DNA of 47,989 bases, taken from assembly GCA_003157485.1 (NCBI GenBank), contig PMJQ01000202.1, positions 348 to 48,336 on the forward strand, written 5' to 3'. Below are positions 23,432 through 41,247 of the stretch, piece after piece; position 1 is the first letter of the stretch, and every line of letters starts with the position of its first letter. The notes under the pieces are model-generated. The model saw only the letters and a list, made by a program, of their open reading frames with translations. It did not search any database and had not been told where the DNA came from. The position numbers were made by a program, and so were the translations under genes. The stretch is from Ignavibacteriota bacterium. Lineage in GTDB: Bacteria > Bacteroidota > Ignavibacteria > UBA10030 > UBA6906.

Positions 23432-23770
23432 CTAAACAGCATACGCTGAAAGCCTCCGACGTCCTTCCGCCTCTGCGATGTTCCGAACAATCTTCCTTCG
23501 CTGCACTTTGAGCGCGTCGATGAGAAGCGCATTTGCCCTTTCGAAGTCCTTCAGCACCGGGAGTATTTCCGTCCACACATCCCCGGCGCCCCCTTCTTCG
23601 TTCCCCGATTTCCTCAGAGATGCGAGAAGTCCCGACACCTTTACGAGAAGCACGTCCCGTTCATGCATCCGGACGACAAGGTCGTGTATCTCACCCCGCT
23701 CCGCCAGCCCGCGCATCGACCGGCTCAGGATGACCGCCGCCGTGAGCGATTTCAACGTCTCATGCGCCAT
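23432..23770 (-). CDS. small helical protein, possible FliT/FlgN-type flagellar chaperone
   Basis: From the ATG at 23770 (overlapping the fliD stop by 11 bases, ATGGCGCATGA) this is a 112-residue all-helical protein: MAHETLKSLTAAVILSRSM, then EIHDLVVRMHERDVLLVKVS and a basic C-terminal helix (ALKVQRRKIVRN). FliT and FlgN, the export chaperones for the cap and hook-associated proteins, are helical proteins of this size, and fliT typically follows fliD and fliS. The sequence itself is not distinctive, so this is a context-based call. It could equally be an unrelated helper protein. It ends 14 bases before flgM. Confidence 0.6.
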   Translation of the reverse strand: MAHETLKSLTAAVILSRSMRGLAERGEIHDLVVRMHERDVLLVKVSGLLASLRKSGNEEGGAGDVWTEILPVLKDFERANALLIDALKVQRRKIVRNIAEAEGRRRLSAYAV

Positions 23771-25229
23771 AGGACGCAAAGCTGTTAAGGAGCGTCTGCG
23801 TCTGCTGCGCCTCGTCGAGCAGCTGCTGGATGTCGATGAACTGCTGCTTGTACGCATCGACCTGCGTATCGATCCTGGCGTTCAGCGTGACCAGCCTGCT
23901 TGCGATCGTCTTGATCTGCGCGTTGTCCCCTTTCGTCTCAGTGTCGATCGACCCTCCGTACGACACGAAAGAGGACAGCTTCGCCTGAAGAGTGTTCGCA
24001 ACACCGTTCGTCGAATTGAACAGATCGGAAACCTGCGTCGGGTTCGCCGCGAGCGCCGTTTCGAATTTCGATTTGTCGGAGAGACTCAGCGTACCGTCGT
24101 CGTTCGTCGTGATCCCGATGGAGGAGAGAACCGACGGCGCCCCCGCGGCAACGCTCGAGACGGAATGGAGCATCAGCGAACGGAGATCGGACGCCAGGTA
24201 GCGCACATTCATATCGTCGGCAAACGGCCCGCGCGTCCCCGCCGTGGCATCGATTGCGGTCTGCGTCCCCAGGTAACTTATCGTCGAATTGTACGCCGAG
24301 AGGAAGCTGTTTACCGTCGACTCGATGCTCTGGTTGTCCGGAGAAATCGTGAGTGTCACCGGCGTTGTGGACGTCCCCGTGAGGTTCAGGGTCAGCCCGT
24401 TCACGGCATCGGAGATTGAGTTCGACCCGCGCGTCATCGCGACGCCGTTCAGCGAAAACGATGCGTCCAGGTTTTCGCTGTACCCCTCGATGAATCCGGC
24501 CTGCGTGGGGGAAGCGATCGTTCTGGGGGTCGTTCCCGGCGTATCCGTGAAACTCACGGAGCCGTACCCGAGGAGCGCGGCGAGAGTCGAATTGCCGTCG
24601 GTCACGGAGGCGATGTGGTTTGCGGTTCCGGTCGATTTTGCCGTGAGCGCGAGCTCCGTATGGGTAGAGTCCACGTGGAGGACAGAGGCGGAGACGCCGA
24701 CATTCGGCGTGCCGTTGACCGCAGTGGCAATAGCGGCGATCACCTGGTCGTTCGTCTGTCCGTCGGTGAGCGTCACAGTAACCTGCGTCCCGTTTATCGA
24801 AAAGGTCCTGGCGCCCGCACCGAGCGACGTGATGATTGATGTGTCGGACGCCGTTAGCTGGGTTGACAGGAGTATATCGGATTTTGCGAGCCGCGTAACG
24901 CTGTCGAGCGTATGCGTCCCTATCGCCGCGGCGCTCGTCGCCGTCCCGTTCGCGACACCCGACGAGGAGCTTGCGACGGAGAAATCGGCAAAGGGGGACG
25001 ACGATCCGACCTTCTGAAGCGCCTGCACGCTTGTATAGAGCGTGTTCAGCTTGGATTTCAGCGCCGTGAGCGCGCTGACGCGCGTCTGCAGGGTGTCTTC
25101 CTGCGTCTGGACCGGCGTGACCGACGTCGCCACGAGCGTCGCCTTGTACTGCGCGGCGAGCGAGTCGAGCGACTGTGTCGATGATGTCGACGACGTTGAC
25201 GTGGTCGTCGGTGTAATCGTCGTTGCCAT
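23760..25229 (-). CDS. fliD: FliD, flagellar filament cap protein
   Basis: A 489-residue cap/hook-associated protein 2. The N-terminus is unusually Ser/Thr-rich (about the first 20 residues), followed by the conserved helix SLAAQYKATLVATSV and VSALTALKSKLNTLYTSVQAL. The middle is beta-rich with repeated Thr/Ser/Gly. The FliD C-terminal domain is clear: VNSFLSAYNSTISYLGTQT, DLRSLMLHSVSS, SDLFNSTNGVANTLQAKLSSF and a coiled-coil end (LNARIDTQVDAYKQQFIDIQ). It caps the filament and promotes flagellin folding. Its start shares one base with the fliS stop (TAATG), so the two are coupled. The Ser/Thr-rich head could be modified by the glycosyltransferases nearby; that is speculation. Confidence 0.95.
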   Translation of the reverse strand: MATTITPTTTSTSSTSSTQSLDSLAAQYKATLVATSVTPVQTQEDTLQTRVSALTALKSKLNTLYTSVQALQKVGSSSPFADFSVASSSSGVANGTATSAAAIGTHTLDSVTRLAKSDILLSTQLTASDTSIITSLGAGARTFSINGTQVTVTLTDGQTNDQVIAAIATAVNGTPNVGVSASVLHVDSTHTELALTAKSTGTANHIASVTDGNSTLAALLGYGSVSFTDTPGTTPRTIASPTQAGFIEGYSENLDASFSLNGVAMTRGSNSISDAVNGLTLNLTGTSTTPVTLTISPDNQSIESTVNSFLSAYNSTISYLGTQTAIDATAGTRGPFADDMNVRYLASDLRSLMLHSVSSVAAGAPSVLSSIGITTNDDGTLSLSDKSKFETALAANPTQVSDLFNSTNGVANTLQAKLSSFVSYGGSIDTETKGDNAQIKTIASRLVTLNARIDTQVDAYKQQFIDIQQLLDEAQQTQTLLNSFASYGA

Positions 25230-25630
25230 TATGCGGCCTCTTTGAGATGAAATGCCTCGGCCCAGGTCGTCCGCAGTTCGTCGAGGATCTTTATTGCTTT
25301 TTGAAAATCACTCTTGTAGATGCACATCTTGCAGTAATCGTACAGCCGGAAAAACCCCATGGACACGTCCGCGTACTTGAAATCGAGCGCGAGGATGAGC
25401 GCGTTGACCGCGCGGACCGCCTGCGTCCTGTCCTTTTTCCTGCACCCCTGGATTCCCAGCGACATCAGTTTGTGGACGATCTGCTCGGGTGACAGGTGCA
25501 TGAACTCTTCGCGCCTGTAGGCGTCGCGGGCGAGCTTCTGCCGGTGCGGGCTTCCGCCGAACCCCGACTCTACCGCAGCGTTCGGGGTGAAATTCTGTGG
25601 TGAATTCGGAGAAGTATACGCCTGGTTCAT
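25229..25630 (-). CDS. fliS: FliS, flagellin export chaperone
   Basis: This 133-residue helical protein has the FliS pattern: an N-terminal Tyr-containing segment, then SPEQIVHKLMSLGIQGCRK, AVRAVNALILALDF and a last helix with FFRLYDYCKMCIYKSDFQK. FliS binds the C-terminus of flagellin in the cytoplasm and prevents premature polymerisation. The first 40 residues are polar and longer than usual. It follows flagellin by 148 bases that hold two hairpins (see separate entries) and is translationally coupled to fliD by a one-base overlap. Confidence 0.92.
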   Translation of the reverse strand: MNQAYTSPNSPQNFTPNAAVESGFGGSPHRQKLARDAYRREEFMHLSPEQIVHKLMSLGIQGCRKKDRTQAVRAVNALILALDFKYADVSMGFFRLYDYCKMCIYKSDFQKAIKILDELRTTWAEAFHLKEAA

Positions 25631-25778: not shown

Positions 25779-26576
25779 CTACTGAAAAAGCTTCAGGAAT
25801 ACCTGGTTGCCCGTGTTCGCCTGGGCGAGCTGTGTGACCGCGGTCTGCTGCAGTATCTGCAGTTTCGTGGACTCCAGCTGCTCCTGCGCGATATCCGCAT
25901 CCATGATCCTGCTCTCCGCAGCCTGCGTGTTCGTTATGGCCACGTTGAGGTTCTGTTCCTTCGCATCCATACGGGAAATGAGGGAACCCATCGTCTGAAG
26001 CGCGGTGACGACAGTGTTGACCTGGGCGCTGACATCGAGGGTCGAGACGTTGACAGAGCTCTGCGCGGCGATGCTTGCAAAGCTGGCGCTGTACGTCACG
26101 TCGATGGAATCGGCAAGGGTAGCACCGACCTGAAACTTCTGGCTGAAGTTCGCCACGTTGAACAGCGACGTACCGTTGAAGTCGGTCTGCGTGATGACGT
26201 CGTTGATTTCCGTGGTGAGCTGGTTCACGTCGTTCGACAGTGCCGTCTTGTCCGACACAGGATCGTTCGCCGCCGCAACCTTCTCCTGGATCGTCGTGAA
26301 GAGGTCACGGACGGTCTGCAATGCCTGCTCGGCAGTGTCCATCATGTTCTTTGCGTCGCCGATGTTGTTGACCGCGGCACCGAGAACTCCGGCGCGGGAT
26401 TCCATCTGCTTCGCAATCGTGTACCCTGACGGATCGTCCGCGACCGAGTTGATGCGTTTGCCGGTCGACAGACGGAGTTGACGAACGCTCAATTGCTGAT
26501 TAACGTTGTTCAACGCATTGTAGGCGTTGTACGCGTTGATCGGCGTATTGATGCGTGCACCTGTTGAGTAAGCCAT
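25779..26576 (-). CDS. fliC: flagellin
   Basis: A 265-residue flagellin. The conserved D0/D1 N-terminus (ARINTPINAYNAYNALNNVN, then STGKRINSVADDPSGYTIA) and C-terminus (NTQAAESRIMDADIAQEQLE, then NTGNQVFLKLFQ) are both complete. The central domain is very short (about residues 145-195) and rich in Ser and Ala, so the filament surface is formed by D1 and a small loop. The ATG follows CAGGGAGGTAGTC, a strong ribosome site. An exact sigma-28 promoter lies upstream. The gene stands between fliS and a glycosyltransferase island, so its Ser/Thr residues may be glycosylated (inference). It is the only flagellin in the window. Confidence 0.97.
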   Translation of the reverse strand: MAYSTGARINTPINAYNAYNALNNVNQQLSVRQLRLSTGKRINSVADDPSGYTIAKQMESRAGVLGAAVNNIGDAKNMMDTAEQALQTVRDLFTTIQEKVAAANDPVSDKTALSNDVNQLTTEINDVITQTDFNGTSLFNVANFSQKFQVGATLADSIDVTYSASFASIAAQSSVNVSTLDVSAQVNTVVTALQTMGSLISRMDAKEQNLNVAITNTQAAESRIMDADIAQEQLESTKLQILQQTAVTQLAQANTGNQVFLKLFQ

Positions 26577-26730: not shown

Positions 26731-26746
26731 GGTGAGGCTCCTCACC
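26731..26746 (-). terminator. possible hairpin at the end of the glycosylation island
   Basis: GGTGAGG-CT-CCTCACC is a perfect stem overlapping the stop codon of the GT2-TPR gene and lying 43 bases before the flagellin -35 element. No T-tract follows, so termination is not assured and some island transcripts may run into flagellin. Confidence 0.35.
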
Positions 26747-27902
26747 GGGATCCCGATGAGGCGACATGGGATCCGGCAACTGCGAGCGCGGTATCGAAAT
26801 TCGAGCGGATTTCAGGCGACGAAGGATCGAGACGGAGCGCGTGTGCAAAATATTCAAGCGCGGAGGCGCCGTCACCCATCTTCCACATGCACTGGCCCAT
26901 GATCTGGCGCACAATCGATTCATCCATCTCCAGGTCGACGGCGATGTCGAGCGGAGGCCGCGAGGGGGCCTCGAAAAACATCGACAGTATCTCGCGGAGA
27001 AGGGGAACCGCCGACGCGAAGTCTTTTCGCGCGATATGCGCACCGACGATGTACCAGCGGGCGGCGAGCTGCACGGGGGCAAGAGCGAGGGACGAGCGGC
27101 AGCACTTCTCCGCTTCCGCGGGCGCCCCGGTCCGCAGTTCCGCCTCCCCGAGAAGGTCCCAGACAATCGCCCTGATGGAATCCGGAAGACCCCCAGGCCT
27201 CAGCGCCCTCCGGAGATACTCTTTCGCCTCGCCGTACCGCTGGAACATCGAGGCGGTGCTGCCGATGTGGTAGCACGCGTAGGCGTCATGCGGGTTCTTC
27301 CCGAGCCTTTCGTGGAGGAGGCGGAGATTTCTCCCGGCCTTCTCCTCCATGATCCCGACTCCCTGCCCGTACCCGAGATGCTCGATCAGGATGGACGAGG
27401 AGACGATCTTCCCGCCGGCACGCTCGATGGAGGGGGTGATCTGCTCGTGTATCGTCCCCTCAAAACGGAACCGCGCGTCATTCCTGAAGAGCCTCGCGTA
27501 CGGCATCACGTGAACGGCAATGCCGGTGGGAAGCGTCGAGCGGCTGCGGACCTGGAGCATGTATGCGGAGGCGGATCCGTCCCCGCAACAGCCGCGGAGC
27601 GCCACCTCCTGGCCCGGAGCAAGGCGCTCGTCCGCGTCAAGCATCAGCACCCACCGCCCCGAGCACCGTCGGAGCGATTCGTTCCGGGCCGATGCGAAGT
27701 CGTCCCGCCACGGGACGTGAACAACACGGCACCCGTGCGCGGAGGCGATCGCCACGGTGTCGTCTTTTGACCCCGTGTCCACGACGACGATCTCATCCGC
27801 GACGCCGCGCACGCTCGCGAGACATCCCGGGAGGAACTTCGATTCATCCCGGACGATCATGGCGAGAGAAATGAGGGGTCGAATGCCGTCCCGTCGTTCC
27901 AC
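26742..27902 (-). CDS. family 2 glycosyltransferase with TPR-like C-terminus
   Basis: A 386-residue protein starting at a GTG three bases after the previous stop (GAGGTG site). Residues about 10-210 form a GT2 (GT-A) domain of the SunS-like type: ISLAMIVRDESKFLPGCLAS, the nucleotide-binding VVVDTGSKDDT, and the metal-binding LMLDADERL. A conserved FEGTIHEQI follows. From about 220 on there are TPR-like helices: DAYACYHIGSTASMFQRYGE, AIVWDLLGEAELRTG and a final GDGASALEYFAHALRLDP. This layout is common among bacterial protein- and peptide-directed glycosyltransferases. It is the last gene of the island and lies next to flagellin, so flagellin is the likeliest acceptor (inference). Confidence 0.9.
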   Translation of the reverse strand: MERRDGIRPLISLAMIVRDESKFLPGCLASVRGVADEIVVVDTGSKDDTVAIASAHGCRVVHVPWRDDFASARNESLRRCSGRWVLMLDADERLAPGQEVALRGCCGDGSASAYMLQVRSRSTLPTGIAVHVMPYARLFRNDARFRFEGTIHEQITPSIERAGGKIVSSSILIEHLGYGQGVGIMEEKAGRNLRLLHERLGKNPHDAYACYHIGSTASMFQRYGEAKEYLRRALRPGGLPDSIRAIVWDLLGEAELRTGAPAEAEKCCRSSLALAPVQLAARWYIVGAHIARKDFASAVPLLREILSMFFEAPSRPPLDIAVDLEMDESIVRQIMGQCMWKMGDGASALEYFAHALRLDPSSPEIRSNFDTALAVAGSHVASSGSR

Positions 27903-27905
27903 GCG

Positions 27906-30900
27906 TCACCTCACCGCACGTTTCACAAGTTCCACCCTGACATCCCGCATCACGCCGGCCCAGTCGCCGTGTGCAGACTGCCGGAAGAGCCGCATGCCGG
28001 GGTACCAGGGCGAATCCGTCCGGTCAAGAAGCCATCGCCAGTCGGGCCGGAAAGGAAGAAGCGTCCAGACAGGCCTCCCCATCGCGCCGGCGAGGTGCGC
28101 GACGGACGTGTCGACGGCAATCACCAGGTCGATGTGAGACAGCACGGCCGCGGTGCTCGAAAAATCGGCGAGGATCGGATCGAGATTGTCGACGCGAGCT
28201 CCCCCGGGGAGTGAGTCAAGCTGCCCGACGGGCTTCCCTTTCTGAAGGCTGTGAAACTGCACACCGGGAACGTCAAGGAGGGGAAGAAATTCGTAAAGAG
28301 CGCACGACCGGTTCAAGTCATTCCTGTGTATAGGATTCCCTCCCCATACGATCCCCACGTGAAAGATCCCTTCCCCGAATCTGCCCCGCACGGATTCCGC
28401 GGCGGCTGGATCGGCATGGAGATACGGGCCGGACCAGGGAATCGAGCCGATCGAGCGGGTACCGAGCAGGCCGGGAAGACTCAGAAGCTGAACGTACCTG
28501 TCGAAAGGAACGTCCGGTGCCGTCCCCCGAAATTCGATAAGCTGTTCGACGCCGGGAAATCCTCGGAAGAGTCCGCACAGCTCTTTCGGACACTCGAACA
28601 GAACGCTCGCCCCCATTTCCGCAAGAAGGGGGATGTACCGGGCAAACTGTATCGTGTCGCCAAACCCCTGCTCCGGACGGACGAGTATCCGTTTTCCCCC
28701 CATCGGGGAGCCGTCCCAGCGGAGATTCTCTGGTCCCGGCGGCACGTAGAGGCGGCGGGGATCTTTGACCTTGAACCTGAATTCGTAGTCGCGCCACCCC
28801 TCCTCGAACTGCCCCCTGAGAAGGAGGACAAGTGCCCTGTTGAGGCGGGCCTCCGCATACGCAGGATTTATGCGGAGGGCCTCGTCGTAGCTCGCCAGGG
28901 ATTCATCGAACCTGTGCTCGAATTGAAGCGCGGCGGCGAGGTTGAAATACACCTCGGGGATCGCCGGATTCTCGGCGATCACCGCGCGGTAGACCTGCTT
29001 CGCTTCGTGGAACCGCCCGAGGCCGGCAAGAGCGTTCCCGAGGTTGTTCCATGCCAGGTGATAGTCGGGCGAAAGCCGGATCGCCTCGCTGAATTCCTTC
29101 TCCGCTTCGGCAAAACGGGAACTGTCAAGGAGGAGCGAACCCAGGTTGTTATGCGCGGGGGAGTACTCCGCACAGGACCGAATCGCCATCCGGAAGCATT
29201 TCTCGGCGATCGCGGGCTGCCCCTTTTCCCTCAGCACCATCCCCATGTTGTTGAGGACTTCCGGGAAATCGGGCTTGATGCGGAGCGCGGTTTCAAGGGC
29301 CCGGTACGCCTCTTCGGATGATCCCTTGAGGACGAGCGCGGTTCCGAGACGCGCCCAGCCCCAGGGACTCTCCGGATCAAGTTCCGTCACATTCCGGTAG
29401 CACAGGATCGCCCCGTCAATGTCCCCCCTGGACTGCCGGAGCGGGCCCGCAAGCATGTAGAGCTCCACCTCACGGGGATCCGCCGTGATCGCCCGGTCGA
29501 ACGCGAGGAGCGCCCCATCATCGTCATGAAGAGCCTTGCAAAGCACTCCGACATTCTTCAGGAGAAGCGGCGAGGTCGGGTTGAGCGCGAGCGCGCTTCT
29601 GTATTCCTCCAATGCGCCCGCCGGATCCCCCTGTTCGTTGAGAAGACTCCCCAGGTTCACGTGCGCCTGCAGGAATTCCGGGTCCCTTTCGAGTGCGGCA
29701 CGGTAACACGCGGCCGCTTCCACGGGATTTCCCTGCACCTTCCGTATGTTCCCCAGGTTGTATTGGTATTCTGCGTTCTCCGGCTCAAGCGCGATCGCGG
29801 CGGCGATCTCTGAGGCGCCCGATCCGGGTTCCCCCAACGACGCGAGGACGACGCCAAGGGCGTTACGGGATTCCGCATGTGCGCCGTCGGCGGCAATCGC
29901 CTCACGGAAACAGCGCAATGCCTCTTCCTTGTCGCCGGACCTGAATGAGGCGGAACCCCGTTCAAACAATGACGCGGCAGATTCGCCCACGCACGGGGCG
30001 AGGATCGCGCCGGGATGATGCGCGAGTTTTCTCTCCGACTCCCGCTCGAGGGCGGCGCCGACCCGCTCCATGACGCCGGACCAGTCACCCGGGGCCGTCT
30101 GACGGAAGATCCGCAGGGAAGGGTACCACGGCGAATCCTCACGCTCAAGCTGCCAGCGCCAGTCCGGCACAAAGGGGAGCAGGAGCCAGACGGGCTTCCC
30201 CATCGCCCCGGCAAGGTGAGCCACCGCCGTGTCCACCGTGAGAACGAGGTCGAGATTCGCGATGACCCCCGCGGTAACGGCAAAGTCGTCAAGCTCTCCT
30301 CCCAGGTCCCTGACACCCGGGAGCGGGATTGACTCAACCTCTGCCGCGTGTTTCTGGAGACTGTAGAGCTGCACACCCGGAATCGAGGAAACCGGAAGGA
30401 AGTAATCCCGATCCATCGACCGCGCGGCGTCATTCCGGTGGGAAGGATTCCCGGCGCGGACGACGCCGACATTGAGCGCGCGTCCGTCGCACACTCCCCG
30501 GAACCGTTCCACGAATGCGGGATCCGGATGAATGTACGGCCCGCTCCAGGGAATATCCTTTTCGCCGGCGGAGAATATCCCGGGGAGGCTGAGGAGCGGA
30601 ACGGCAAAGTCGTATCCCCCCGGGGACACGGGCTCTTCACGCGCGGCCATCCTGTCGACACCGGGGAACGCGTTCAGAATCCGGACGAGATCCTTCTGAC
30701 ACTCGAGTACCACGCTCCCTCCCCGCGCTTTGACGAGAGGGAGATACCGCACAAACTGCAGAGTGTCGCCGAATCCCTGCTCCGCATAGACAAGGAGTGT
30801 CTTCCCGGCGAACGGAGCACCGTCCCATGCCGCCTTCTCCCGATCGGGATCACGGTACGTCGCGTTCGCGCCGCGGATACGAAAACGATACTCGTACTCT

Positions 30901-31520
30901 TTCCAACCCTCTTCAAGCCTTCCGAGCGTCAAAAGCGCGTTCCCCCTGTTCCAGTGCGCGTTGGAATGGGACGGGGAGATTCCGAGCGCACGATCGTACA
31001 GCCGGAGAGCACTCCCGACATCCCCCTGTTCATGCGCGATGACGCCGAGGTTGACGATTGCGTCCGCGAGGCGGGGGTTGATCGCGAGGGCATCATTGTA
31101 TGAGGCGACGGCGGATTCCGCGTCTCCCCGGGCATGCCGTGCGTTCCCGAAAACCACCAACGCCCGAGCACAGAGAGGATCGGTCCCGATCGCGCGCCGG
31201 CTGAACCGTTCGGCCCCTTCCGGATCGTTCAATTCTTCCAGAAGGAGGAGCGCGAGATCGGCAAGCGCGGACGCGTAATTCGGTTTCAAGGACAGGAGGC
31301 TCCGGAATGCGTCAAGAGCTCCCTTCAGATCCCGCTTCTTCCACCTGGTCCGCGCAAGCAGATAGAGCGCATCGACGTGACGGGGATGCGCGGCGGCCGC
31401 CTTCCCGAGAGAACATTCGGCCTCGTCGAGATCGCCCGCATAGTAATGGGAGCGCCCCGATGTATAATCGGCGTTCATCGCGAGCGGACTCCTGTCCCCG
31501 TGTGCGCCGTCCTCTCTCAC
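27906..31520 (-). CDS. duplicated TPR-glycosyltransferase (GT9/OGT-like) protein
   Basis: This 1204-residue protein contains the same two-part module twice. Module 1: TPRs about 20-200, then a GT-B-like domain 205-495. Module 2: a longer TPR array 515-905, then a second GT domain 905-1204. Both begin EEGW-[KR]-[DE]-YE-[FY]-RF, carry EQGFGDT (247-253 and 950-956) and end with AVDT/TVDT, VAHLAGAMG and the PDWRW region. The C-terminal domain resembles ADP-heptose (GT9)-type transferases; TPRs in such proteins bind protein acceptors, as in O-GlcNAc transferases. The GTG start overlaps the previous stop as GTGA. An ATG 42 bases inside with AGGAG is an alternative. Both copies retain the core motifs, so both may be active. 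Confidence 0.9.
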   Translation of the reverse strand: MREDGAHGDRSPLAMNADYTSGRSHYYAGDLDEAECSLGKAAAAHPRHVDALYLLARTRWKKRDLKGALDAFRSLLSLKPNYASALADLALLLLEELNDPEGAERFSRRAIGTDPLCARALVVFGNARHARGDAESAVASYNDALAINPRLADAIVNLGVIAHEQGDVGSALRLYDRALGISPSHSNAHWNRGNALLTLGRLEEGWKEYEYRFRIRGANATYRDPDREKAAWDGAPFAGKTLLVYAEQGFGDTLQFVRYLPLVKARGGSVVLECQKDLVRILNAFPGVDRMAAREEPVSPGGYDFAVPLLSLPGIFSAGEKDIPWSGPYIHPDPAFVERFRGVCDGRALNVGVVRAGNPSHRNDAARSMDRDYFLPVSSIPGVQLYSLQKHAAEVESIPLPGVRDLGGELDDFAVTAGVIANLDLVLTVDTAVAHLAGAMGKPVWLLLPFVPDWRWQLEREDSPWYPSLRIFRQTAPGDWSGVMERVGAALERESERKLAHHPGAILAPCVGESAASLFERGSASFRSGDKEEALRCFREAIAADGAHAESRNALGVVLASLGEPGSGASEIAAAIALEPENAEYQYNLGNIRKVQGNPVEAAACYRAALERDPEFLQAHVNLGSLLNEQGDPAGALEEYRSALALNPTSPLLLKNVGVLCKALHDDDGALLAFDRAITADPREVELYMLAGPLRQSRGDIDGAILCYRNVTELDPESPWGWARLGTALVLKGSSEEAYRALETALRIKPDFPEVLNNMGMVLREKGQPAIAEKCFRMAIRSCAEYSPAHNNLGSLLLDSSRFAEAEKEFSEAIRLSPDYHLAWNNLGNALAGLGRFHEAKQVYRAVIAENPAIPEVYFNLAAALQFEHRFDESLASYDEALRINPAYAEARLNRALVLLLRGQFEEGWRDYEFRFKVKDPRRLYVPPGPENLRWDGSPMGGKRILVRPEQGFGDTIQFARYIPLLAEMGASVLFECPKELCGLFRGFPGVEQLIEFRGTAPDVPFDRYVQLLSLPGLLGTRSIGSIPWSGPYLHADPAAAESVRGRFGEGIFHVGIVWGGNPIHRNDLNRSCALYEFLPLLDVPGVQFHSLQKGKPVGQLDSLPGGARVDNLDPILADFSSTAAVLSHIDLVIAVDTSVAHLAGAMGRPVWTLLPFRPDWRWLLDRTDSPWYPGMRLFRQSAHGDWAGVMRDVRVELVKRAVR

Positions 31521-34500
31521 ACCCGTCCCCCGGAGGATGCCAACAGTTTGTTATCATCGGCCGCCAGTCCGAGCAACGCGTTCACTTTTGCAAGTCCTGA
31601 GGCCCCGAACCTGTTTTCCGCCGAGAGCGCCACTGCATGCTCGAACATCATCTTTGCCTCCGTGTCGAGTCCGGCGAGATACAGGACTTCTCCGAGCCCC
31701 GCGCATGCCTGCGTCGAGCCGGGACGGATGCTCAGCGCACGTTCGAACGAGCCTTTCGCTTTTTCGAGATCGCTCAATCCGAGGTGGCTCATCCCCCTGA
31801 ACGTCTCGAGTCCCGCGGCCGCCTCCTCCCGCGCGTCCGGGGGGAGTCCCGCAATGATATTGTCGGCCCCTTCAAGCGCACCTATCGCCTCGACGAACAT
31901 TTTCTTTCCAAACAGGTCGCCCGCGATCGCAAGCCGCGCACTGAGCTCGCTCACCGGCACGCTTTTGGTGCGCGGCGCGGCAGGGGTGAATTTCGCAAGA
32001 CAGAATCCCGCCTTTTCTTTCATAGCCTTGATGACCTCGAAACGGGGGTCGGCGGAGAGCTGCTGGAAGCTCCTGTGGTGCTTGACGTGGTGTATGTCGT
32101 CAAGCATCACAAAGCAGGGACCCTTCAACCGCCCGATGACATAATTGAATTCCACGTTTCCCATGTGCCCGCCGCTGTCGAGGAGGACGAAATCAGGCTC
32201 AAAGGCGAATACGCCCAGGACCTTCCCCAGGAGATCGTCGGCAACGTCGGGGAAATCGGTTTCCCGGAAATAGTTCTCGACGCGCTCGTTCTCCGCATGA
32301 TCGACATACAGGGATATCGTCTCCGGCTCTTTCACGGTCCGTTTCTCTATCTCTTCGCGTGTCGGGAGGAGACCGCGCGGGACCGAGAGTCCGTTCAGGA
32401 GCGTCACATAGGCGAGAAGCCCCTCCTTCTCGAGATTCCGTCCTGCCAGTCCGTGAAGGCCGGGGTTGACTTCAATGGAGTAGAACACCGAGTCATCGAG
32501 CGCAAAATCTCTGAGCGCAGCGGCGATCACGGCGGTAGTTCCCGTCCCCATAAACGTGCCGGTCTCGAGTATCTTCTTCGGCCTGGTGCGCACAAACAAC
32601 TCACGTATGGTCCGGGCAAATACGGAGTCCGTGTGCACGGCCGTAATGTCTTCGCCCCCGGCCTGTTCCGACGGCAAGGTGCCGGCCGCCAGCACCTCCT
32701 CCGGCAGTTCCGCCGGCACTTCCGATTGAAGAAGCGCTTCGGGGGAGGCAGCGGCCCCGGCAGAGACAGAATCGATGCTCCCGGGGCGGGGGGAAGCGCT
32801 AACACCAACGCGGGCGAGTGATTCTTTCCCGGCATATCCGAGGAGGAGCCGTTCGAGCTCGTCCCATTCCCGCTCCTGCGGGAACCGGGCAGCGGTCTCG
32901 CGTCCGCCGCGGACGATCTTCTCCCTGAGATCAGATTCGCGGATGAGACGCCGGACCGCGCCGGCGATCTGCTCCGGAGACCGGGGGGGAACAAGGAGGG
33001 CATTCTCCCCGTCGCGGCAGTACTCAAGAGCTCCCGCGGTGGATGTACAGACGACGGCGACTCCGGCCGCCATCGCCTCAAGCGGCGGGCGGGGGCAGGA
33101 ATCATAATGAGAGGCATAGACAAGTATGTCGGCCGTCCCGAAGAGCATCCGCTTTCCTTCGTCGGAGGGGGCAATATGGAATTCACCGGGGAACCCGCGA
33201 AAGATGAGAGGAGGGGTGTTGGAGATCCTCACCGCCGTGAATTTCCCGCCGGAGTCCCGGAGGAGCTCGAGCGCTCTCCGTGCGTCGGCCATCCCCTTGA
33301 AGCCGAGGGGCTCGATCTCCGTTCCGGATTCATCGGGTCCGACGATGAGTATCCGGGGGATACCCCCGGCAGGAGTCTTCTCGAGCGGCGCGAAAACGTG
33401 TTGATCGACGCAGACGGAAATGAATGCGTCGGCCTTGCGGCCGTACAATTTCTCGACCCTCGAGGCGAGCGCCCGCGAATTGGCGACAAAACGGACTCCC
33501 GGGAGAAGATAGGACATCCGCGACATCTCTTTCATCGCCGCATGGAGCTTTCGCACGTCCGGCCGCGCGGATGCGCAGGCATCGTCGAATACGAACTGGT
33601 CCCCCTGCGCGAAATAGACCTTCACGGGGGCGCTCACACCGGCAAGCTCACCGGCATTGGCGAAGTACGTGCTTATCACAACGTCGGAGGGAGGCACAGA
33701 GCGCCACATCGGATCGTTCCCCGCGACATGGATGACGTCCGCGCGTATGTCGAACCATGAGGGACGGGGCGAGCGGGTCACAATCGCCACGCGGTGCCCC
33801 CGGTCGGCAAGAGCGTTGGCCTGACGGAGAAGCGTCAGATTCCCCCCCGTCACGCCGAGTATGCTCGAGATAAGGTATGTGACGGAAAGCCTGTCTTCTC
33901 CGGACTGTGCGGAGCCGCTCCCGGCGCGCGCGCGCGAACGTTCGACGGAATTCGTATTTTCCATTGTATGATTCTCCCTGCCGGTGCGCCGCAATTGATC
34001 TATTGCCCGCCGGATTTCGGGGAGAGGGAATCTCTTCTCCCCCTCCACAAGGTGCGCGATCGCGCCCGTCGTGTCTCCGTACCCGGCAAGAATTTCCGCC
34101 ACGCTCACATGGGCCAGCGCCGAGGCGTGGTCCCCCTTCCCCTTCTTCCACATGGGGCCGGGGAAGAGCTTCTCGAGACCGTACCGCCGGAGGAGCCCTT
34201 CGACGATGCGCGATTCATATCTCATGTCGACCCGTTTCCCCGAACCCGCGCCCAGGTTACCCCCGTGCCAGCGCCACCGGTACACCATCGCGTCGTTGTG
34301 CTTGAAGAGCGCGCTGCCGGCCAGCCGGGACCACCACTCATAGTCGTGGGCACGGGGGAACTCCGGATCGTACGTGCCGAACCTTTCATAGCACGACTTC
34401 CGTATGAGCGACCCGCCGTCGGGTATGACGTTCGCCCGTACCATCGCCCCGGGAAGTTCTCCGTTCCGGCCGGACCACTCTTCATACCGGAGTGTCCGCT

Positions 34501-35347
34501 GCGGGACGAGACCGGAGTCGCAGAGCGTCATATTGCCGTACACCACATCCGCCGACGGATTCCGCGCAAGCACGCTGACGTGCGACGAGACGCAATCCTT
34601 CTCCAGCACGTCGTCGGCACCGAGCCACACGATGAACCCGCCCTTCGCCTCAGCGATCCCCCGGTTCCGGGCCGCAGGAGCCCCGCCGTGATCCTGACGA
34701 ACGTACCGGAAGCGGGGAGACTCGATCGACTTCACAAGAGTTTCCGTCCCGTCTGTCGATCCGTCATCGATCACGATCACTTCGAAATTGTCGTACACCT
34801 GATCGAGCGCGCTCCCGATTGCCTCGCCGAGATAGCGCGCGCCGTTGTACGTGAACAGTATGATGCTCACGAGCGGATGCGCGGGCGCGGCCGGCCGGAG
34901 TATTTCCTTTTCCCCGGGGGGGGGCGTCCGCTCCGCGCTTTCCAGAAGGCGGTATATGCTCTCAACGAGCCCGGCCGGTGAAGCAAAAATCGTCACGCCG
35001 TTTCCGAACCGCTCCGCCATGCGCGGATGACTCTCGGCGAGGAGAATCGCCCCGCGTCCGGAGGCGTGCACCGCCTCGGCGATGGGAGGCTCGCTTCCGG
35101 GGGAGAGGAACAGGACGACAATATCACCGGGAGACGGCTCCCTGAGCGGCGCCGGAGAGTTGTACATCGCGACACCCGCGGGGAGATCATCGCCGCGCGC
35201 GCACGAGACCGCAAATTCCACATTGAACTCCGTTCCCCAGCGGTATCCCCACCCCAGAGTCGCCCGGGCGACCGACCGGAGGCATTCCCGCTGCGGTTCG
35301 TTGAGGCGATCCCAATCGGCGGAGACAAGGACAGACGGACCTCTCAT
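31517..35347 (-). CDS. GT2-GT4-methyltransferase-TPR fusion protein
   Basis: A 1276-residue multi-domain protein. Residues 1-140 form a small region of GT-B-like character. GT2 follows (about 157-380) with SIILFTYNGA, IDDGSTDG (193-200) and GADD (243-246). A GT4 (GT-B) domain spans about 487-840, with TSTAGALEYCRDGENALLV and HYDSCPRPPLEAMAAG. A class I SAM methyltransferase-like domain (about 905-1120) has ETGTFMGTGTT (928-938), a Lys-Ile-Leu strand before it and DPDFVLLDSGG and MLDDIHHVKHH further on. Helical TPR-like repeats fill 1133-1270. The ATG overlaps the asparagine-synthetase stop as ATGA. The protein probably extends and methylates a flagellin glycan, with the TPRs binding the acceptor; this is inference. 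No membrane segments are seen. Confidence 0.88.
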   Translation of the reverse strand: MRGPSVLVSADWDRLNEPQRECLRSVARATLGWGYRWGTEFNVEFAVSCARGDDLPAGVAMYNSPAPLREPSPGDIVVLFLSPGSEPPIAEAVHASGRGAILLAESHPRMAERFGNGVTIFASPAGLVESIYRLLESAERTPPPGEKEILRPAAPAHPLVSIILFTYNGARYLGEAIGSALDQVYDNFEVIVIDDGSTDGTETLVKSIESPRFRYVRQDHGGAPAARNRGIAEAKGGFIVWLGADDVLEKDCVSSHVSVLARNPSADVVYGNMTLCDSGLVPQRTLRYEEWSGRNGELPGAMVRANVIPDGGSLIRKSCYERFGTYDPEFPRAHDYEWWSRLAGSALFKHNDAMVYRWRWHGGNLGAGSGKRVDMRYESRIVEGLLRRYGLEKLFPGPMWKKGKGDHASALAHVSVAEILAGYGDTTGAIAHLVEGEKRFPLPEIRRAIDQLRRTGRENHTMENTNSVERSRARAGSGSAQSGEDRLSVTYLISSILGVTGGNLTLLRQANALADRGHRVAIVTRSPRPSWFDIRADVIHVAGNDPMWRSVPPSDVVISTYFANAGELAGVSAPVKVYFAQGDQFVFDDACASARPDVRKLHAAMKEMSRMSYLLPGVRFVANSRALASRVEKLYGRKADAFISVCVDQHVFAPLEKTPAGGIPRILIVGPDESGTEIEPLGFKGMADARRALELLRDSGGKFTAVRISNTPPLIFRGFPGEFHIAPSDEGKRMLFGTADILVYASHYDSCPRPPLEAMAAGVAVVCTSTAGALEYCRDGENALLVPPRSPEQIAGAVRRLIRESDLREKIVRGGRETAARFPQEREWDELERLLLGYAGKESLARVGVSASPRPGSIDSVSAGAAASPEALLQSEVPAELPEEVLAAGTLPSEQAGGEDITAVHTDSVFARTIRELFVRTRPKKILETGTFMGTGTTAVIAAALRDFALDDSVFYSIEVNPGLHGLAGRNLEKEGLLAYVTLLNGLSVPRGLLPTREEIEKRTVKEPETISLYVDHAENERVENYFRETDFPDVADDLLGKVLGVFAFEPDFVLLDSGGHMGNVEFNYVIGRLKGPCFVMLDDIHHVKHHRSFQQLSADPRFEVIKAMKEKAGFCLAKFTPAAPRTKSVPVSELSARLAIAGDLFGKKMFVEAIGALEGADNIIAGLPPDAREEAAAGLETFRGMSHLGLSDLEKAKGSFERALSIRPGSTQACAGLGEVLYLAGLDTEAKMMFEHAVALSAENRFGASGLAKVNALLGLAADDNKLLASSGGRV

Positions 35348-37041
35348 GACAGCTCCAGGCGTTTACGTTCCACGAAGAGGGAGTGCCAGAGGACGAGGTT
35401 CACCATTATCGAAAGCTGCACGACGTCCCCCCAATCCCTGTACCGCCACGGCCCGGCATCGATCCTCGCGCTGTACCGCGAGGCCATCTCCTTCCCGTTC
35501 CAGTACGGGTTGTCGAGCCAGAACGGGTGGCGGACCAGACTCCCGACGACGCCCGACATGGGCCCATTGAACCATTCGATGAGGGGGGCATTGAAACCGA
35601 TCTTCGAGCGTCTGCTGCGTATCTCGTCGGGGAGTATCCCCCGGAGCGCGTCCCTCAGGACACGCTTCGTATATCCCCCTCCGATCCTCGAGGAGGCGGG
35701 GAGGGCGAGCGAGAACGTGACAAGCCTCCAATCGAGCATCGGCATCCGCACCTCGACCCCATGCGCCATTGAACACCTGTCGTAATTCCTGAGTATGGAA
35801 GGGAGCATCGTCCTGTGGACGTCCTCATAGAGCCGCCGGCCGATGTCGCGGAGAGGAACGTCGAGATATCCCGCGTATCCCCCCAGCAGTTCGTCGGCGC
35901 CGTGCCCGTCGATTGAAACGAGGACGTTCTCCCTTCTCATCTCCCTGTATGTCGCCCAGACCGGCGAGGAGAGGACCCCGTGCACGTATTCGACGGCCCA
36001 GACCGCGTCCTGCAGCGTCCTCACCGCCTCCTCGGGATCGAACGCCCTGTAGCGGACATCGGCGCCAGACTCCCGGGCGGCGATCTCCGCGTAGTGCTTC
36101 TCATCGAGACCACTTCCGGGGAAGAGCGCGACGAACGCTTTCTGCCAGTCGGACGGGCACCGCCGGAGGTCCGTCCCCGCATCAGCGTGAAGCCGGGCCA
36201 TGGCACACGCAACCGCGCTCGAGTCGACACCGCCGCTGAGCGAAGTCCCCACGGGGACGTCGCTTCGCATTCTGATGCGGACCGCGTCGAGGAAAAGCCA
36301 GCGGAACTGTTCCACCTGGTCCTCGTAGCGGCCGGGGACCTCCGGGAAATGATCGCTTGACTCCCACCACCTGACCGGCACGGCACGCCCGTCCTCCCCC
36401 ACGGTCATGCAGTGCCCCGACGGGAGCGAGCGGATCCCTGCGATCATCGTCTCGTCGGTCGTCCCTTCCCACGGCTCAGAGGACTTCATGATCCCGTGGA
36501 CGAGCGGCTCGTTCATCACGATTGTACAATCGTTCAGCCGGGTGAATGCTTTCAGTTCGGAGGCAAATGCCAGGCGTCCGTTCTGATGATAATACAGGGG
36601 CTTGACGCCGAACCGGTCCCGCGCGAGAAAAAGCTCCTTCCGCGCGGAGTCCCAGAGCGCGAACGCCCACATGCCGTTGAGTTTTTCCAGGCACGCTTTC
36701 CCCCACTCGGCGTACGACGCCAGGACGACCTCCGTATCGGTCTGAGTCCTGAACCGGTGCCCCCGCCGCTCCAGATCGGCCCGTATCTCGAGGAAATTGT
36801 ATACCTCACCGTTGAACGTGATCCTGAAAAGGCTCCCCGCAGGGGACACGTATTCCATCGGATTCGCCCCGGCATCAGACAGGTCGAGTATCGCCAGACG
36901 GCGATGCCCCAGCCCGACGGTTCCGTCGATATGCACGCGGCCCCCGTCCGGCCCGCGGTGGGAGAGCGCGTCCGTGAACCGGACGAGCTCATCCCGGTCG
37001 CTCACGCCGCGCCGGTCAACGATCCCCGCAATGCCGCACAT
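35344..37041 (-). CDS. asparagine-synthetase-like amidotransferase (first)
   Basis: A 565-residue class II glutamine amidotransferase plus ATP-dependent synthetase. The mature N-terminal Cys2 (MCGIAGIVDRRG), the SHRGPDGG and GHRRLAILDLS stretches and the NGEVYN motif are present, so glutaminase should work. The synthetase domain has the PP-loop SLSGGVDSSAVA and VSIDGHGADELLGGYAG. Members next to glycosyltransferases amidate sugars or sugar acids, or act on surface glycan precursors, rather than making asparagine. It follows the second homologue by 60 bases and overlaps the fusion gene by 4 bases. The ATG has AAGGAACGCGG before it. The two copies differ clearly in sequence, so they probably have different substrates. 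Confidence 0.92.
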   Translation of the reverse strand: MCGIAGIVDRRGVSDRDELVRFTDALSHRGPDGGRVHIDGTVGLGHRRLAILDLSDAGANPMEYVSPAGSLFRITFNGEVYNFLEIRADLERRGHRFRTQTDTEVVLASYAEWGKACLEKLNGMWAFALWDSARKELFLARDRFGVKPLYYHQNGRLAFASELKAFTRLNDCTIVMNEPLVHGIMKSSEPWEGTTDETMIAGIRSLPSGHCMTVGEDGRAVPVRWWESSDHFPEVPGRYEDQVEQFRWLFLDAVRIRMRSDVPVGTSLSGGVDSSAVACAMARLHADAGTDLRRCPSDWQKAFVALFPGSGLDEKHYAEIAARESGADVRYRAFDPEEAVRTLQDAVWAVEYVHGVLSSPVWATYREMRRENVLVSIDGHGADELLGGYAGYLDVPLRDIGRRLYEDVHRTMLPSILRNYDRCSMAHGVEVRMPMLDWRLVTFSLALPASSRIGGGYTKRVLRDALRGILPDEIRSRRSKIGFNAPLIEWFNGPMSGVVGSLVRHPFWLDNPYWNGKEMASRYSARIDAGPWRYRDWGDVVQLSIMVNLVLWHSLFVERKRLELS

Positions 37042-37101: not shown

Positions 37102-38979
37102 TCATGCGAGAAACGTCCTCAGCCACCATTCGAAGCTCAGGAGAGACCAGATCAGGAGCCGCCGGTTCTGCTTCCCCTCCAGGTGCTCATCCACAAGCGC
37201 GCAGACGGCCTCGCGGTCAAGATAGTCGAAGAGCCGCGCCCTGGGGCTCATGATCTCCCGTCGGACGTAGTCCATGCTCTCACCCTTGAACCAGCTCGCA
37301 TCGGGAGCGGAGAACCCCTGTTTTTCCGCGACCGCGACTTCAGGGGGGATGTACCGGGACATCACATTTCTCAGGAGCACTTTCCCGTCGGATGTCCTCT
37401 GAAAATATTTCGAGCGCTTGGCACCAGGTTCGTTTTCGTTCAGCCGCACGACCTCCCCAAGGTTTGCCAGCTTCAGGCGGACCGGGAGCTTCATCGCGAA
37501 CTCGACAAGATCGTTGTCAAGAAAGGGAACGCGAGTCTCCACACCGTGCGCCATGCTCAGCTTGTCCTCCACGGTGAGGAGGCCGTGAAGAAACGTCTTC
37601 GCCTCGAAATAGAGCGAGTGATTTATGTAGTCCTCGGGGCGGGTCAGCGTCGGCGCATAGCTGTCGAACACGTCGCGGAAGATGTCCCGCGTCCATACGC
37701 CGGCAACGTCGGCGCGTATCGGACTGAACACCTGCCGGACGACCCTGTTCGGAATGAGCCGCTGCCAGTAGAGGTAGTACTTGTCCACGTATTCTTCGAA
37801 CCCTGCATTGACGACCGCGCGGTAATAGCGCCAAGGATATCCGCCGAACAGTTCGTCCCCCCCTTCGCCCGATAGGACAACCTTGACGAATTTTCCGGCG
37901 AGCTGCGACGCGTAAAAGTTGGGATAGCTCTGACCGACCCTGGGCTCCTCGATGTGCAAAGCGACGCGCGGGAACACCCGCTCCATGTCGCCGGCCTTCA
38001 GAACCATCTCGTAGTGCTCGGTCTTGAAGCGGTAAGACATGATCTCGGCCTTGGATCGCTCGTCAAATGCGAGTTCCATCCCGGAGGCCGAATGAAGGTC
38101 GAATCCGCAGGTGAAGCTTTTCAGGTACGGGAGATGCGTCGCAGCGATGGCGGTCAGCGTCCCGGAATCCATCCCGCCGCTCAGGTACGCGCCGACGTCC
38201 ACGTCGCTCACGAGCTGGCGACTCACGGCCTGCTTCATGAGCCTGTCGAGCTCTTCGGCATACTCTTCGTCGCTACGGGGGGAGGCGGGCTCTTCAAACC
38301 GGTAGTCCCAGTACCGCCGGGGGACGGGTTCCGACGCCGCCCCCAGAGGAATGCGGAGAAACGTCCCCGCCGGAAGGAGGTGGACGCCTGCGAAGAGGGT
38401 CCTGTCGCTGAAAAAATTCTGAAACGTGAAATACTCAAGGAGCGCGGGCCTGTCAAGCCCCACGCGGAATGCCGGGTGCGGGATGAGGGCCTTGACTTCG
38501 GACCCGAACAGGAGCGTGTTCCCGCACAGAGCATAGTAGAGAGGTTTGACCCCGTAGCGGTCGCGTGCAAGGAACAGCTCCTGGCGCGTCCTGTCCCAGA
38601 TCGCGAACGCAAACATGCCGTTGAATCTCTCCAGGGCCTTTTCCCCCCACCGGGCGCAGGCATGGAGGACGACCTCGGTATCGGTCCTCGAATGGAACCG
38701 GGCGCCCAGGGATTCGAGCTCCAGCCGGAGCTCCTGGAAGTTGTACACCTCGCCGTTGTAGCTTATGATGAACTGGCGGTCCGGCGTCATCATCGGCTGG
38801 TGGCCGGCGGGAGAAAGATCGATGATGGAAAGCCGGCGGTGGCCGAGCCCGACGAAGCCATCCGTGTAAAATCCCTCGCCGTCCGGCCCGCGGTGCGCGA
38901 TGGCGTCGGTCATCCGCCGGAGTATGACGGGGGAAACCGGCTCACCGTTCAGATTGAAAATGCCCGCAATTCCGCACAT
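37102..38979 (-). CDS. asparagine-synthetase-like amidotransferase (second)
   Basis: A 625-residue homologue with the same layout: catalytic Cys2 in MCGIAGIFNLNG, AHRGPDGEGF, GHRRLSIIDLSPAGHQPM, NGEVYN, then a PP-loop YLSGGMDSGTL and LSGEGGDELFGGYPWRYY. It is longer than the first copy by a C-terminal region and resembles the AsnB family of exopolysaccharide loci. It should transfer ammonia from glutamine to an acidic sugar or amino acid. It is preceded, within 17 bases, by the remains of a wbpD gene and then by a complete WbpB-type dehydrogenase, so the expected substrate would be a uronic-acid-type sugar of the glycan. The ribosome site is weak (GGACCTCC). Confidence 0.91.
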   Translation of the reverse strand: MCGIAGIFNLNGEPVSPVILRRMTDAIAHRGPDGEGFYTDGFVGLGHRRLSIIDLSPAGHQPMMTPDRQFIISYNGEVYNFQELRLELESLGARFHSRTDTEVVLHACARWGEKALERFNGMFAFAIWDRTRQELFLARDRYGVKPLYYALCGNTLLFGSEVKALIPHPAFRVGLDRPALLEYFTFQNFFSDRTLFAGVHLLPAGTFLRIPLGAASEPVPRRYWDYRFEEPASPRSDEEYAEELDRLMKQAVSRQLVSDVDVGAYLSGGMDSGTLTAIAATHLPYLKSFTCGFDLHSASGMELAFDERSKAEIMSYRFKTEHYEMVLKAGDMERVFPRVALHIEEPRVGQSYPNFYASQLAGKFVKVVLSGEGGDELFGGYPWRYYRAVVNAGFEEYVDKYYLYWQRLIPNRVVRQVFSPIRADVAGVWTRDIFRDVFDSYAPTLTRPEDYINHSLYFEAKTFLHGLLTVEDKLSMAHGVETRVPFLDNDLVEFAMKLPVRLKLANLGEVVRLNENEPGAKRSKYFQRTSDGKVLLRNVMSRYIPPEVAVAEKQGFSAPDASWFKGESMDYVRREIMSPRARLFDYLDREAVCALVDEHLEGKQNRRLLIWSLLSFEWWLRTFLA

Positions 38980-39115: not shown

Positions 39116-40099
39116 TCACGCCTGAAGCAGCTCATACCGACGCAGCCTCCCGCAGGTTCTCCCGATGAGGGGATGAACATGGTCCGTTTCGCCGCTCACG
39201 CGCGCATTCCTGATATCGTACACGAGCTGGATGGAGGGGCGCGCATCGTCGATGCCGAATCCCCGCCCGGCAAGGATCTCCGCGTACACCTTCGTATGCA
39301 GATCGGCGAACCCATCGGTGAATTCCAGATCCTCCCCATCGATCGTGATGGAGCGGTACGTCGTCTTTCCGCCCGTCAGATCCGCGGGAGGAAGGTCGTT
39401 CATGTCCGTCGAGAGGAACCACCGCACATTCGCCTTCTGCAGCTCGAGAAACCCGGACATCCGGCCGGGCTCCACGCTGTGCACGATGCTGTACCCCGCA
39501 CCGCCGAAGAGCCAGAGGAGGAGGTCGAAGAGATGGATCCCGATATTCGTTGCGAGCCCGCCCGAGCGCTCCGCGTCCCCTTTCCATGAGTAGTGGTACC
39601 AGGGCCCGCGCCCGGTAACGTACGTCAGGCACACCTCGCGGCGTCGCCCCCGGGGGGCGGCGTCGATGGACCGCTTCAACTCCTGAATCGCCGGGTGGAT
39701 GCGGAGCTGGAGGACCGTGCTGACCTTTCCCCCGGTCTCGCTTTCCATCTCCTGCAATGCGTCGAGGTTCCACGGCTTCAGGACAAGCGGCTTTTCGCAT
39801 ATCGCGTGCGCGCCCGTGCGGAGCGCGAACCGTATGTGAGCGTCGTGAAGATGGTTCGGCGTGCAGATCGACATGTAGTGAATCCTCCGCTCCTCCGGAC
39901 CCCGGCGGAGCTTCTCCACATGCCTGTCAAATCTCTCGAACTCGGTGAAAAAGCTCGCATCAGGGAAGAACCGGTCGAGAATCCCCACGGAATCATGGGG
40001 ATCCACGGCCGCTTCGAGCCTGTTCCCCGTATCCCGGATCGCCTGAAGGTGCCGCGGAGCGATGTACCCCGCAACACCGGACAGGGCAAAATTTTTCAT
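39116..40099 (-). CDS. wbpB: WbpB/WlbA-type UDP-sugar 3-dehydrogenase (Gfo/Idh/MocA family)
   Basis: Start at the ATG at 40099 (GAGG six bases upstream); 327 residues. The N-terminal Rossmann segment ALSGVAGYIAPRHLQAIRDT is the signature of the WbpB/WlbA group, as are FFPDASFFTEFERFDRH and the catalytic Glu-Lys-Pro (102-104) in AHAICEKPLVL. The end carries NIGIHLFDLLLWLFGG. These enzymes oxidise the C3 hydroxyl of UDP-GlcNAc-uronic acid as the first of three steps (WbpB, WbpE, WbpD) to a 2,3-diamino uronic acid used in O-antigen and glycoprotein sugars. No wbpE is in the window, and wbpD is only a remnant, so the route is incomplete here. A sigma-54 promoter precedes the gene. Confidence 0.91.
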   Translation of the reverse strand: MKNFALSGVAGYIAPRHLQAIRDTGNRLEAAVDPHDSVGILDRFFPDASFFTEFERFDRHVEKLRRGPEERRIHYMSICTPNHLHDAHIRFALRTGAHAICEKPLVLKPWNLDALQEMESETGGKVSTVLQLRIHPAIQELKRSIDAAPRGRRREVCLTYVTGRGPWYHYSWKGDAERSGGLATNIGIHLFDLLLWLFGGAGYSIVHSVEPGRMSGFLELQKANVRWFLSTDMNDLPPADLTGGKTTYRSITIDGEDLEFTDGFADLHTKVYAEILAGRGFGIDDARPSIQLVYDIRNARVSGETDHVHPLIGRTCGRLRRYELLQA

Positions 40100-40147
40100 G
40101 AGGGGCCTCGAGGTCAAGTTGTGGAGTGTGCACGTGGCTTATGGAAG

Positions 40148-40287: not shown

Positions 40288-41247
40288 TTAACGCTTCGTT
40301 ACGAAGCACTGCCCGCTCGGCAGATAAAAAGGGCGCTCCGGCGTGTCGCGAAAGAACTCGTCCACGGCGAGCTTTGCTCCCGGGCACGTCTCGTACCCGT
40401 AGTCGTCGAATACCATCTTTCCCCCCGGCATCATGCGCGGATAGAAGAAGCGACAGCAGTCGAGGACGGAGCGGTAAATATCGACGTCGATGTGCGCGAG
40501 ACTAAAGACGCTCTCTTCGATGGGGGGAGACGTCGCGGGGAAATAGCCAGGATAGAAAAACACGTTTTCGCACCCCGCAAGGTTTTTTTGCACCGATGCG
40601 AGGGACGTATCGCTGAAGTCTCCCTGGCGGTGAGCGTCTTTCGAGGGGTCAGTCGAGGGCATCCCCTCAAACGTATCGAAGAGGTGTATCTTCTTGCCGC
40701 TTCCTTCACACGCCTTGGCAAGGAGACGCGCGGTTCCACCCCTGTACACTCCGATTTCAGCCATTTCCCCCTCAGACTGAAGGGCCTCGAGCGCAAACTG
40801 ATACAGCATGTAGCATCTCGTCCTGTCCACCAGCGAGTACGTGATCTCCCGCATGATCCCGACAAACCGCTCGTCCGTGTCCCAGAGCGGCATGGGTCGT
40901 ATCACTCTCACCTGGAGGGGGGGACCGCCCCCCTGTATGGCTCCCGGGTTCCCTTCCGAGGCAATGCGTGCGAGCCCGCGGGAGGCGGGCATATTTGAAT
41001 GGTCGAGCGTGATGACTCTCCTGAAGAATATCGCTGCAGTTGCATCGTCATGAACGAGGAGGCAGAGCTCGCCCAAGCCGACAAGGACGTCGATGTTGTT
41101 CGGATCTGCGGCAAGAAGCCTCCTGTAGATAGGCACCGCTTCGTCATAACGGCCGGCGCTCACACAGGCAAGGGCTGCGGCCAGTGAGTCAGCCGGGGGG
41201 GCGGCCGGAGAATCGGCCAGTATCTCAGAAGGCGAATAGAGTTCCAT
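40288..41247 (-). CDS. TPR-TylF/MycF-type O-methyltransferase
   Basis: A 319-residue protein. The first 90 residues are TPR-like (LAAALACVSAGRYDEAVPIY, VLVGLGELCLLVHDDATAAI). The rest is a TylF/MycF-like macrocin O-methyltransferase domain: YMLYQFALEALQSEGEMAEI followed by GVYRGGTARLLAKA (SAM site), HLFDTFEGMPSTDPS, AHIDVDIYRSVLDC with the metal-binding Asp pair, and GGKMVFDDYG. TylF-type enzymes methylate sugar hydroxyls of glycosylated products with a divalent metal. The N-terminal TPR is unusual and suggests a protein acceptor; compare the TPRs of the island's transferases. It has its own sigma-54 promoter and stands one gene before the island. Confidence 0.9.
   Translation of the reverse strand: MELYSPSEILADSPAAPPADSLAAALACVSAGRYDEAVPIYRRLLAADPNNIDVLVGLGELCLLVHDDATAAIFFRRVITLDHSNMPASRGLARIASEGNPGAIQGGGPPLQVRVIRPMPLWDTDERFVGIMREITYSLVDRTRCYMLYQFALEALQSEGEMAEIGVYRGGTARLLAKACEGSGKKIHLFDTFEGMPSTDPSKDAHRQGDFSDTSLASVQKNLAGCENVFFYPGYFPATSPPIEESVFSLAHIDVDIYRSVLDCCRFFYPRMMPGGKMVFDDYGYETCPGAKLAVDEFFRDTPERPFYLPSGQCFVTKR

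Follow-up and report, generated by a model that had tools for sequence, protein, structure and literature searches.

Flagellin glycans are highly variable among bacteria, and FlmG is among the few modifying enzymes whose way of finding flagellin is known. Does the long chain of glycosyltransferase and methyltransferase domains encoded upstream of flagellin in the window (the whole stretch of 47,989 nucleotides of Ignavibacteriota DNA that was analysed) act on flagellin, and which part of it would find the substrate? We put the probability at about 0.68 that this 1276-aa protein is a soluble cytoplasmic flagellin-glycosylating multienzyme, in which a TPR module docks the substrate, GT2 and GT4 domains extend the glycan and a COMT-like domain O-methylates it.

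The ORF at 31517-35347 on the minus strand starts with ATG and runs in a single frame without interruption for 1276 aa, which bears out the preliminary description of one fusion chain of that length. The order given there (GT2, GT4, methyltransferase, TPR) was recovered from Pfam, from AlphaFold2 and Foldseek for the methyltransferase, and from homologues of the tail. All four named domains are present, but the count of four was one too low, as a fifth part occupies aa 1-150. The profile search that had been proposed as a check placed the GT2 and GT4 matches above the Pfam cut-off and the methyltransferase and TPR matches below it, so the latter two calls required separate proof and were established by other means. 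No transmembrane segment was found in the 1276-aa protein. The ORF and its parts are as follows.

31517..35347, minus strand: five-part ORF (orphan N-domain, GT2, GT4, COMT-like methyltransferase, TPR tail), 1276 aa.
34898..35347, minus strand: orphan alpha/beta domain, aa 1-150, with no Pfam family; a block in AlphaFold2.
34268..34882, minus strand: GT2 (GT-A) glycosyltransferase, aa 156-360, with PF00535 and the motifs DDGS, ADD and DYEWW.
32822..33889, minus strand: GT4 (GT-B) glycosyltransferase of a D(x7)E subfamily, aa 487-842, from PF00534 and the domains of relatives.
31958..32653, minus strand: predicted COMT-type SAM O-methyltransferase, here called MTx, aa 899-1130, from a 43-row alignment, AlphaFold2, Foldseek and a local profile.
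31565..31870, minus strand: flagellin-locus TPR module, aa 1160-1261 (core aa 1183-1261), from a module-specific profile and linkage to flagellin.

The GT2 domain has both the GT-A profile (Glycos_transf_2, PF00535, aa 161-287, 103 bits) and the motifs of a GT2 glycosyltransferase, namely DDGS at aa 194-197 and the DxD-type ADD at aa 244-246, with HDYEWW from aa 334; its PDB relatives are chondroitin synthase, WrtF and TarP. The GT4 domain matches Glycos_transf_1 (PF00534) at aa 731-817 with 66 bits, and its N-lobe matches weakly at aa 500-646. The E(x7)E motif of GT4 reads D749(x7)E757 here, and the earlier statement that all key motifs are intact is correct for GT2 and the methyltransferase but not for GT4. 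Since Asp stands for the first Glu in 5/5 members of the subfamily compared, all of which also have HYDSCPxPPLE in common, we regard it as a trait of this GT4 subfamily and not as decay. Four relatives from the same order carry GT4 domains that are 53-59% identical, within ORFs of 1616 to 2293 aa. A search of 395 genomes of the phylum recovered no homologue of the N-terminal 150 residues, and AlphaFold2 gave a low-confidence alpha/beta structure of alternating strands and helices (pLDDT 42-71). A degenerate GT4 lobe was considered for this region and dropped, as profile comparison gave no support and the model was of low confidence.

For the methyltransferase, the Methyltransf_24 match (aa 927-991) scores 17.5 bits against a cut-off of 26.3. 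The AlphaFold2 model built from the 43-row alignment reached a pLDDT of 90.6 and a pTM of 0.84, and Foldseek matched it to COMT/CCoAOMT-type O-methyltransferases (7cvu, E 1.5e-9; TM 0.55-0.62). D1057 and D1083-D1084 are invariant among the 43 aligned sequences. We take D1057, D1083 and D1084 to be candidate metal ligands from their motif position as in COMT enzymes, without superposition. By modelled fold and conserved acidic residues, MTx qualifies as a COMT-type metal-dependent O-methyltransferase of predicted activity.

The gene overlaps its neighbours at both ends by 4 bp on the same strand, in an operon-like manner. The genes around it are listed here from FliD upwards.

23760..25229, minus strand: FliD filament cap (PF07195, PF02465).
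25229..25630, minus strand: FliS-like flagellin chaperone (PF02561).
25779..26576, minus strand: flagellin, 265 aa (PF00669, PF00700).
26742..27902, minus strand: GT2-TPR protein, near flagellin in relatives too (33-49% identity).
27906..31520, minus strand: TPR-GT9-like-TPR-GT9-like protein, 1204 aa, the next gene after the ORF.
35344..37041, minus strand: asparagine-synthase-type amidotransferase (PF00733, PF13537), overlapping the ORF start.
37102..38979, minus strand: second asparagine-synthase-type amidotransferase.
39116..40117, minus strand: GFO/IDH/MocA oxidoreductase (PF01408).
40288..41247, minus strand: TPR-TylF-type O-methyltransferase (PF05711 and TPR).

Downstream of the ORF, a same-strand run leads through TPR-GT9-TPR-GT9 and GT2-TPR to flagellin, FliS and FliD, so that flagellin and other glycan genes share one run, as in a flagellin glycosylation island. 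The remainder of the window holds chiefly chemotaxis, two-component and flagellar-assembly genes. The connection to flagellin drawn in the preliminary description is supported by this run and by the linkage of the tail described below. The layout of the 27906-31520 product is that of two FlmG-type units, head to tail; its GT9-like domains and the GT9 found after MTx in other proteins share only a short match (47 columns).

TPR families match the tail at aa 1184-1263, all below the Pfam cut-off, and its homologues are 38-55% identical. For the tail, a local profile of generic TPRs gave too weak a signal, and a module-specific profile was applied instead, with a query of 137 aa and E<=1e-8 as a strong match. 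At this threshold the module was found in 13/98 genomes of the order, and flagellin is present in 13/13. In 12 of the 13, flagellin follows on the same strand and contig, 1.4-9.6 kb downstream of the match, and the 13th match sits on a contig of 3.6 kb that has no flagellin. About 1000 further TPR-like candidates from those genomes were scored and did not pass the threshold. In the class, the module is carried by 59/381 genomes, and a PF00669 match by 54/59 of these versus 93/322 of the others (Fisher p ~3e-20, kinship ignored), counts that are not independent because the genomes are related and that include some false flagellins because PF00669 also matches FlgL. Among the matches listed (for flagellin, down to E ~8e-20), 22/23 same-contig pairs of module and flagellin lie within 20 kb of each other on the same strand, with flagellin downstream.

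The arrays joined to the module comprise GT2-GT2-GT4, GT4-GT4, MT-GT2-GT4-GT2, GT4-GT2, GT2 and MT-MTx-MT-GT9-GT2-GT2. The regularity lies in the tail and not in the enzymes: the tail is constant and the attached arrays vary. At somewhat less than even odds, we suggest that the tail is a dedicated, exchangeable flagellin dock onto which swapped GT/MT cassettes are plugged, the attached array setting the filament glycan. If this were true, dock and array would work as an assembly line tethered to the substrate. A tail that stays constant near flagellin genes while the catalytic part is shuffled would open docking to direct tests, and flagellin-modifying enzymes of uncultured phyla could be predicted from it. 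Besides a 294-aa double copy, the module is found upstream of flagellin at two loci as enzyme-free ORFs of 136 and 153 aa (L126:12557-12964 and L127:771-1229), which are possibly a separate flagellin adaptor.

In Caulobacter crescentus, the TPR domain of FlmG binds flagellins and is required for their glycosylation (PMC7591256). FlmG resembles the window protein in having TPR and a glycosyltransferase in one chain, and it O-glycosylates flagellin in the cytoplasm, with the TPR as the flagellin-binding part (PMC7591256). However, FlmG has 596 aa with an N-terminal TPR and one GT-B (PMC7591256), whereas the TPR of the window protein is C-terminal and follows GT2, GT4 and methyltransferase domains. 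Compared by layout and not by sequence, the 27906-31520 product is nearer to FlmG than is the 1276-aa protein, which we do not class as FlmG but which, by analogy, may work like it. Under the reading that we prefer, the C-terminal TPR module would dock flagellin prior to export, as in FlmG; the GT2 and GT4 domains, acting together with the adjacent TPR-GT9 and GT2-TPR proteins, would add successive sugars onto a Ser/Thr-linked glycan of this flagellin; and one sugar of that glycan would be O-methylated by the COMT-like domain, possibly stopping glycan growth. That the TPR binds flagellin is suggested here by how the module and flagellin genes are linked in genomes. The bound acceptor being flagellin, the sugar identities, the reaction order, the methyl acceptor and any capping role are parts of this scheme that we infer. 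Extension and capping on one carrier, as originally envisaged, may apply; internal O-methylation would fit equally well as a cap.

Enzymes that join a glycosyltransferase to a methyltransferase are known from other glycosylation systems. The type B flagellin GT2 of C. difficile, CDR20291_0242, likewise combines a GT with a methyltransferase domain and is encoded beside fliC, and its proposed activities are the addition of rhamnose to flagellin and the methylation of that rhamnose; its methyltransferase is PF08241, and the sections of that report drawn on here mention no GT4 or TPR tail (PMC5207246). Enterobacterial flagellin islands also have fused GT and methyltransferase in genes beside fliC, but these are of GT41 type with one GT2 case, and no GT2-GT4 pair is reported (PMC4875605). 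In WsaE of Geobacillus stearothermophilus, two rhamnosyltransferase domains share a chain with an O-methyltransferase that places a 2-O-methyl cap, the methyl group being the chain end; WsaE differs in its N-terminal methyltransferase, its lipid-linked S-layer glycan and its three reported domains, none of which is TPR (PMC2943079).

WsaE also illustrates a different possibility, namely that the array makes a lipid-carried glycan of another kind for the cell surface (S-layer, LPS or exopolysaccharide), with the TPR as a generic scaffold and the proximity of flagellin due to chance. Among the enzymes that the GT2/GT4 domains resemble are chondroitin synthase, EPS enzymes and others of polysaccharide synthesis, and the closest GT4 relatives (L022-L024) have neither an adjacent flagellin in the DNA examined nor a strong tail module. 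However, the tail keeps to flagellin genes in both distance and orientation, such a preference for flagellin loci would not be expected of a generic TPR, and the genes annotated in the run include no flippase, polymerase or oligosaccharyltransferase. We consider this alternative unlikely. In the same three relatives, GT2-TPR, which in the window is a gene of its own, appears to be fused to the C-terminal part of a GT2-GT4-GT2-GT4 array of 2.2-2.3k residues (L022:8073-14903, L023:9944-16618, L024:6704-13582).

In the open-access literature we found no account of flagellin glycosylation in Ignavibacteria. Every ingredient of the window protein has precedent, and a limited open-access search found no description of the GT2-GT4-MT-TPR combination or of the constant tail with variable arrays. 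The earlier remark that no characterised protein has this order agrees with that literature, but the singularity it implied does not hold. On sequence grounds, the 1276-aa protein belongs to a broad family of fused GT/MT/TPR arrays, of which it shows one arrangement. Fused relatives from its order and class are often larger, up to 4.7k residues, with GT2, GT4, GT9 and MT modules shuffled. Uncharacterised giant arrays from Ignavibacteria, Planctomycetota, Verrucomicrobiota and Geobacteraceae (L021, L035/L071, L052, L080 and others) share the GT4 subfamily, the MTx family or the TPR module with it, and several adjoin flagellin or FliD; they differ from it in module order and number, and most have MTx followed by GT9. 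The whole protein used as a query gave no match to genome contigs, and the methyltransferase alignment used as a query did match. The proposed search for the same order returned fused relatives but not the identical order, which was seen nowhere else among the genomes searched; the nearest are GT2-GT2-GT4-TPR of L021 and MT-GT2-GT4-MTx-like-MTx-GT9 in a 2086-aa protein of Geobacter argillaceus (L080), the latter with the only other GT2-GT4-MT order seen. Two of the largest ORFs, L040:638-14767 (4710 aa) and L028:1571-15163 (4531 aa), have about a dozen GT/MT domains each.

Homologues are not split, and the objection that they might always be was not borne out. Another possibility is that the chain is an assembly artefact joining separate genes. 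The genome is a draft in 239 contigs, the methyltransferase segment has a GC content of 0.578 versus 0.63-0.66 in the other domains, and MTx is absent from the remaining 97 genomes of the order. However, the ORF is one open frame with no stop and similar GC3 throughout, and both GT2-GT4-TPR and MT-GT fusions occur in single frames of independent genomes. One of these, L021 from the same order, adjoins flagellin and has GT2-GT2-GT4-TPR with the same tail in one chain, which makes an assembly error unlikely for the GT2-GT4-TPR frame; the two methyltransferase joints have no same-order homologue. An artefact appears very improbable overall. The window protein looks like the C-terminal part of the L021 type, with GT4 and tail separated by a methyltransferase cassette, and the lower GC content and the absence from the order suggest a recent gain of this cassette, although GC3 is level.

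MTx has no match in plasmids, phage records or PDB sequences, and is up to 58% identical to domains within giant glycosyltransferase chains from other phyla. Its family was found at 52 loci of other groups, with 29 members in ORFs of at least 990 aa (mostly GT2 ... MTx-GT9), 22 solo and one in a 451-aa ORF. FliC or FliD is in the flanking DNA examined at 11/29 fused loci versus 0/22 solo loci (Fisher p 0.001), in favour of the flagellin reading. An alternative is that flagellin is glycosylated but that the methyltransferase acts on a nucleotide sugar or on the protein itself and not on the assembled glycan. COMT-fold enzymes methylate many small hydroxyl substrates, and solo relatives with no fused GT occur in Nitrospirota and viral contigs; on the other side, the embedding in GT chains at the 29 fused loci, mostly with GT9 following, suggests glycan-linked work. 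We judge this variant a little less probable than the other surface glycan, and favour O-methylation of the flagellin glycan. In the MTx tree the window row falls within an unresolved fork, so we claim no donor; by path, Planctomycetota are nearest. The viral members come from 34 IMG/VR contigs (L092-L125), are at most 47% identical and are never fused to a GT.
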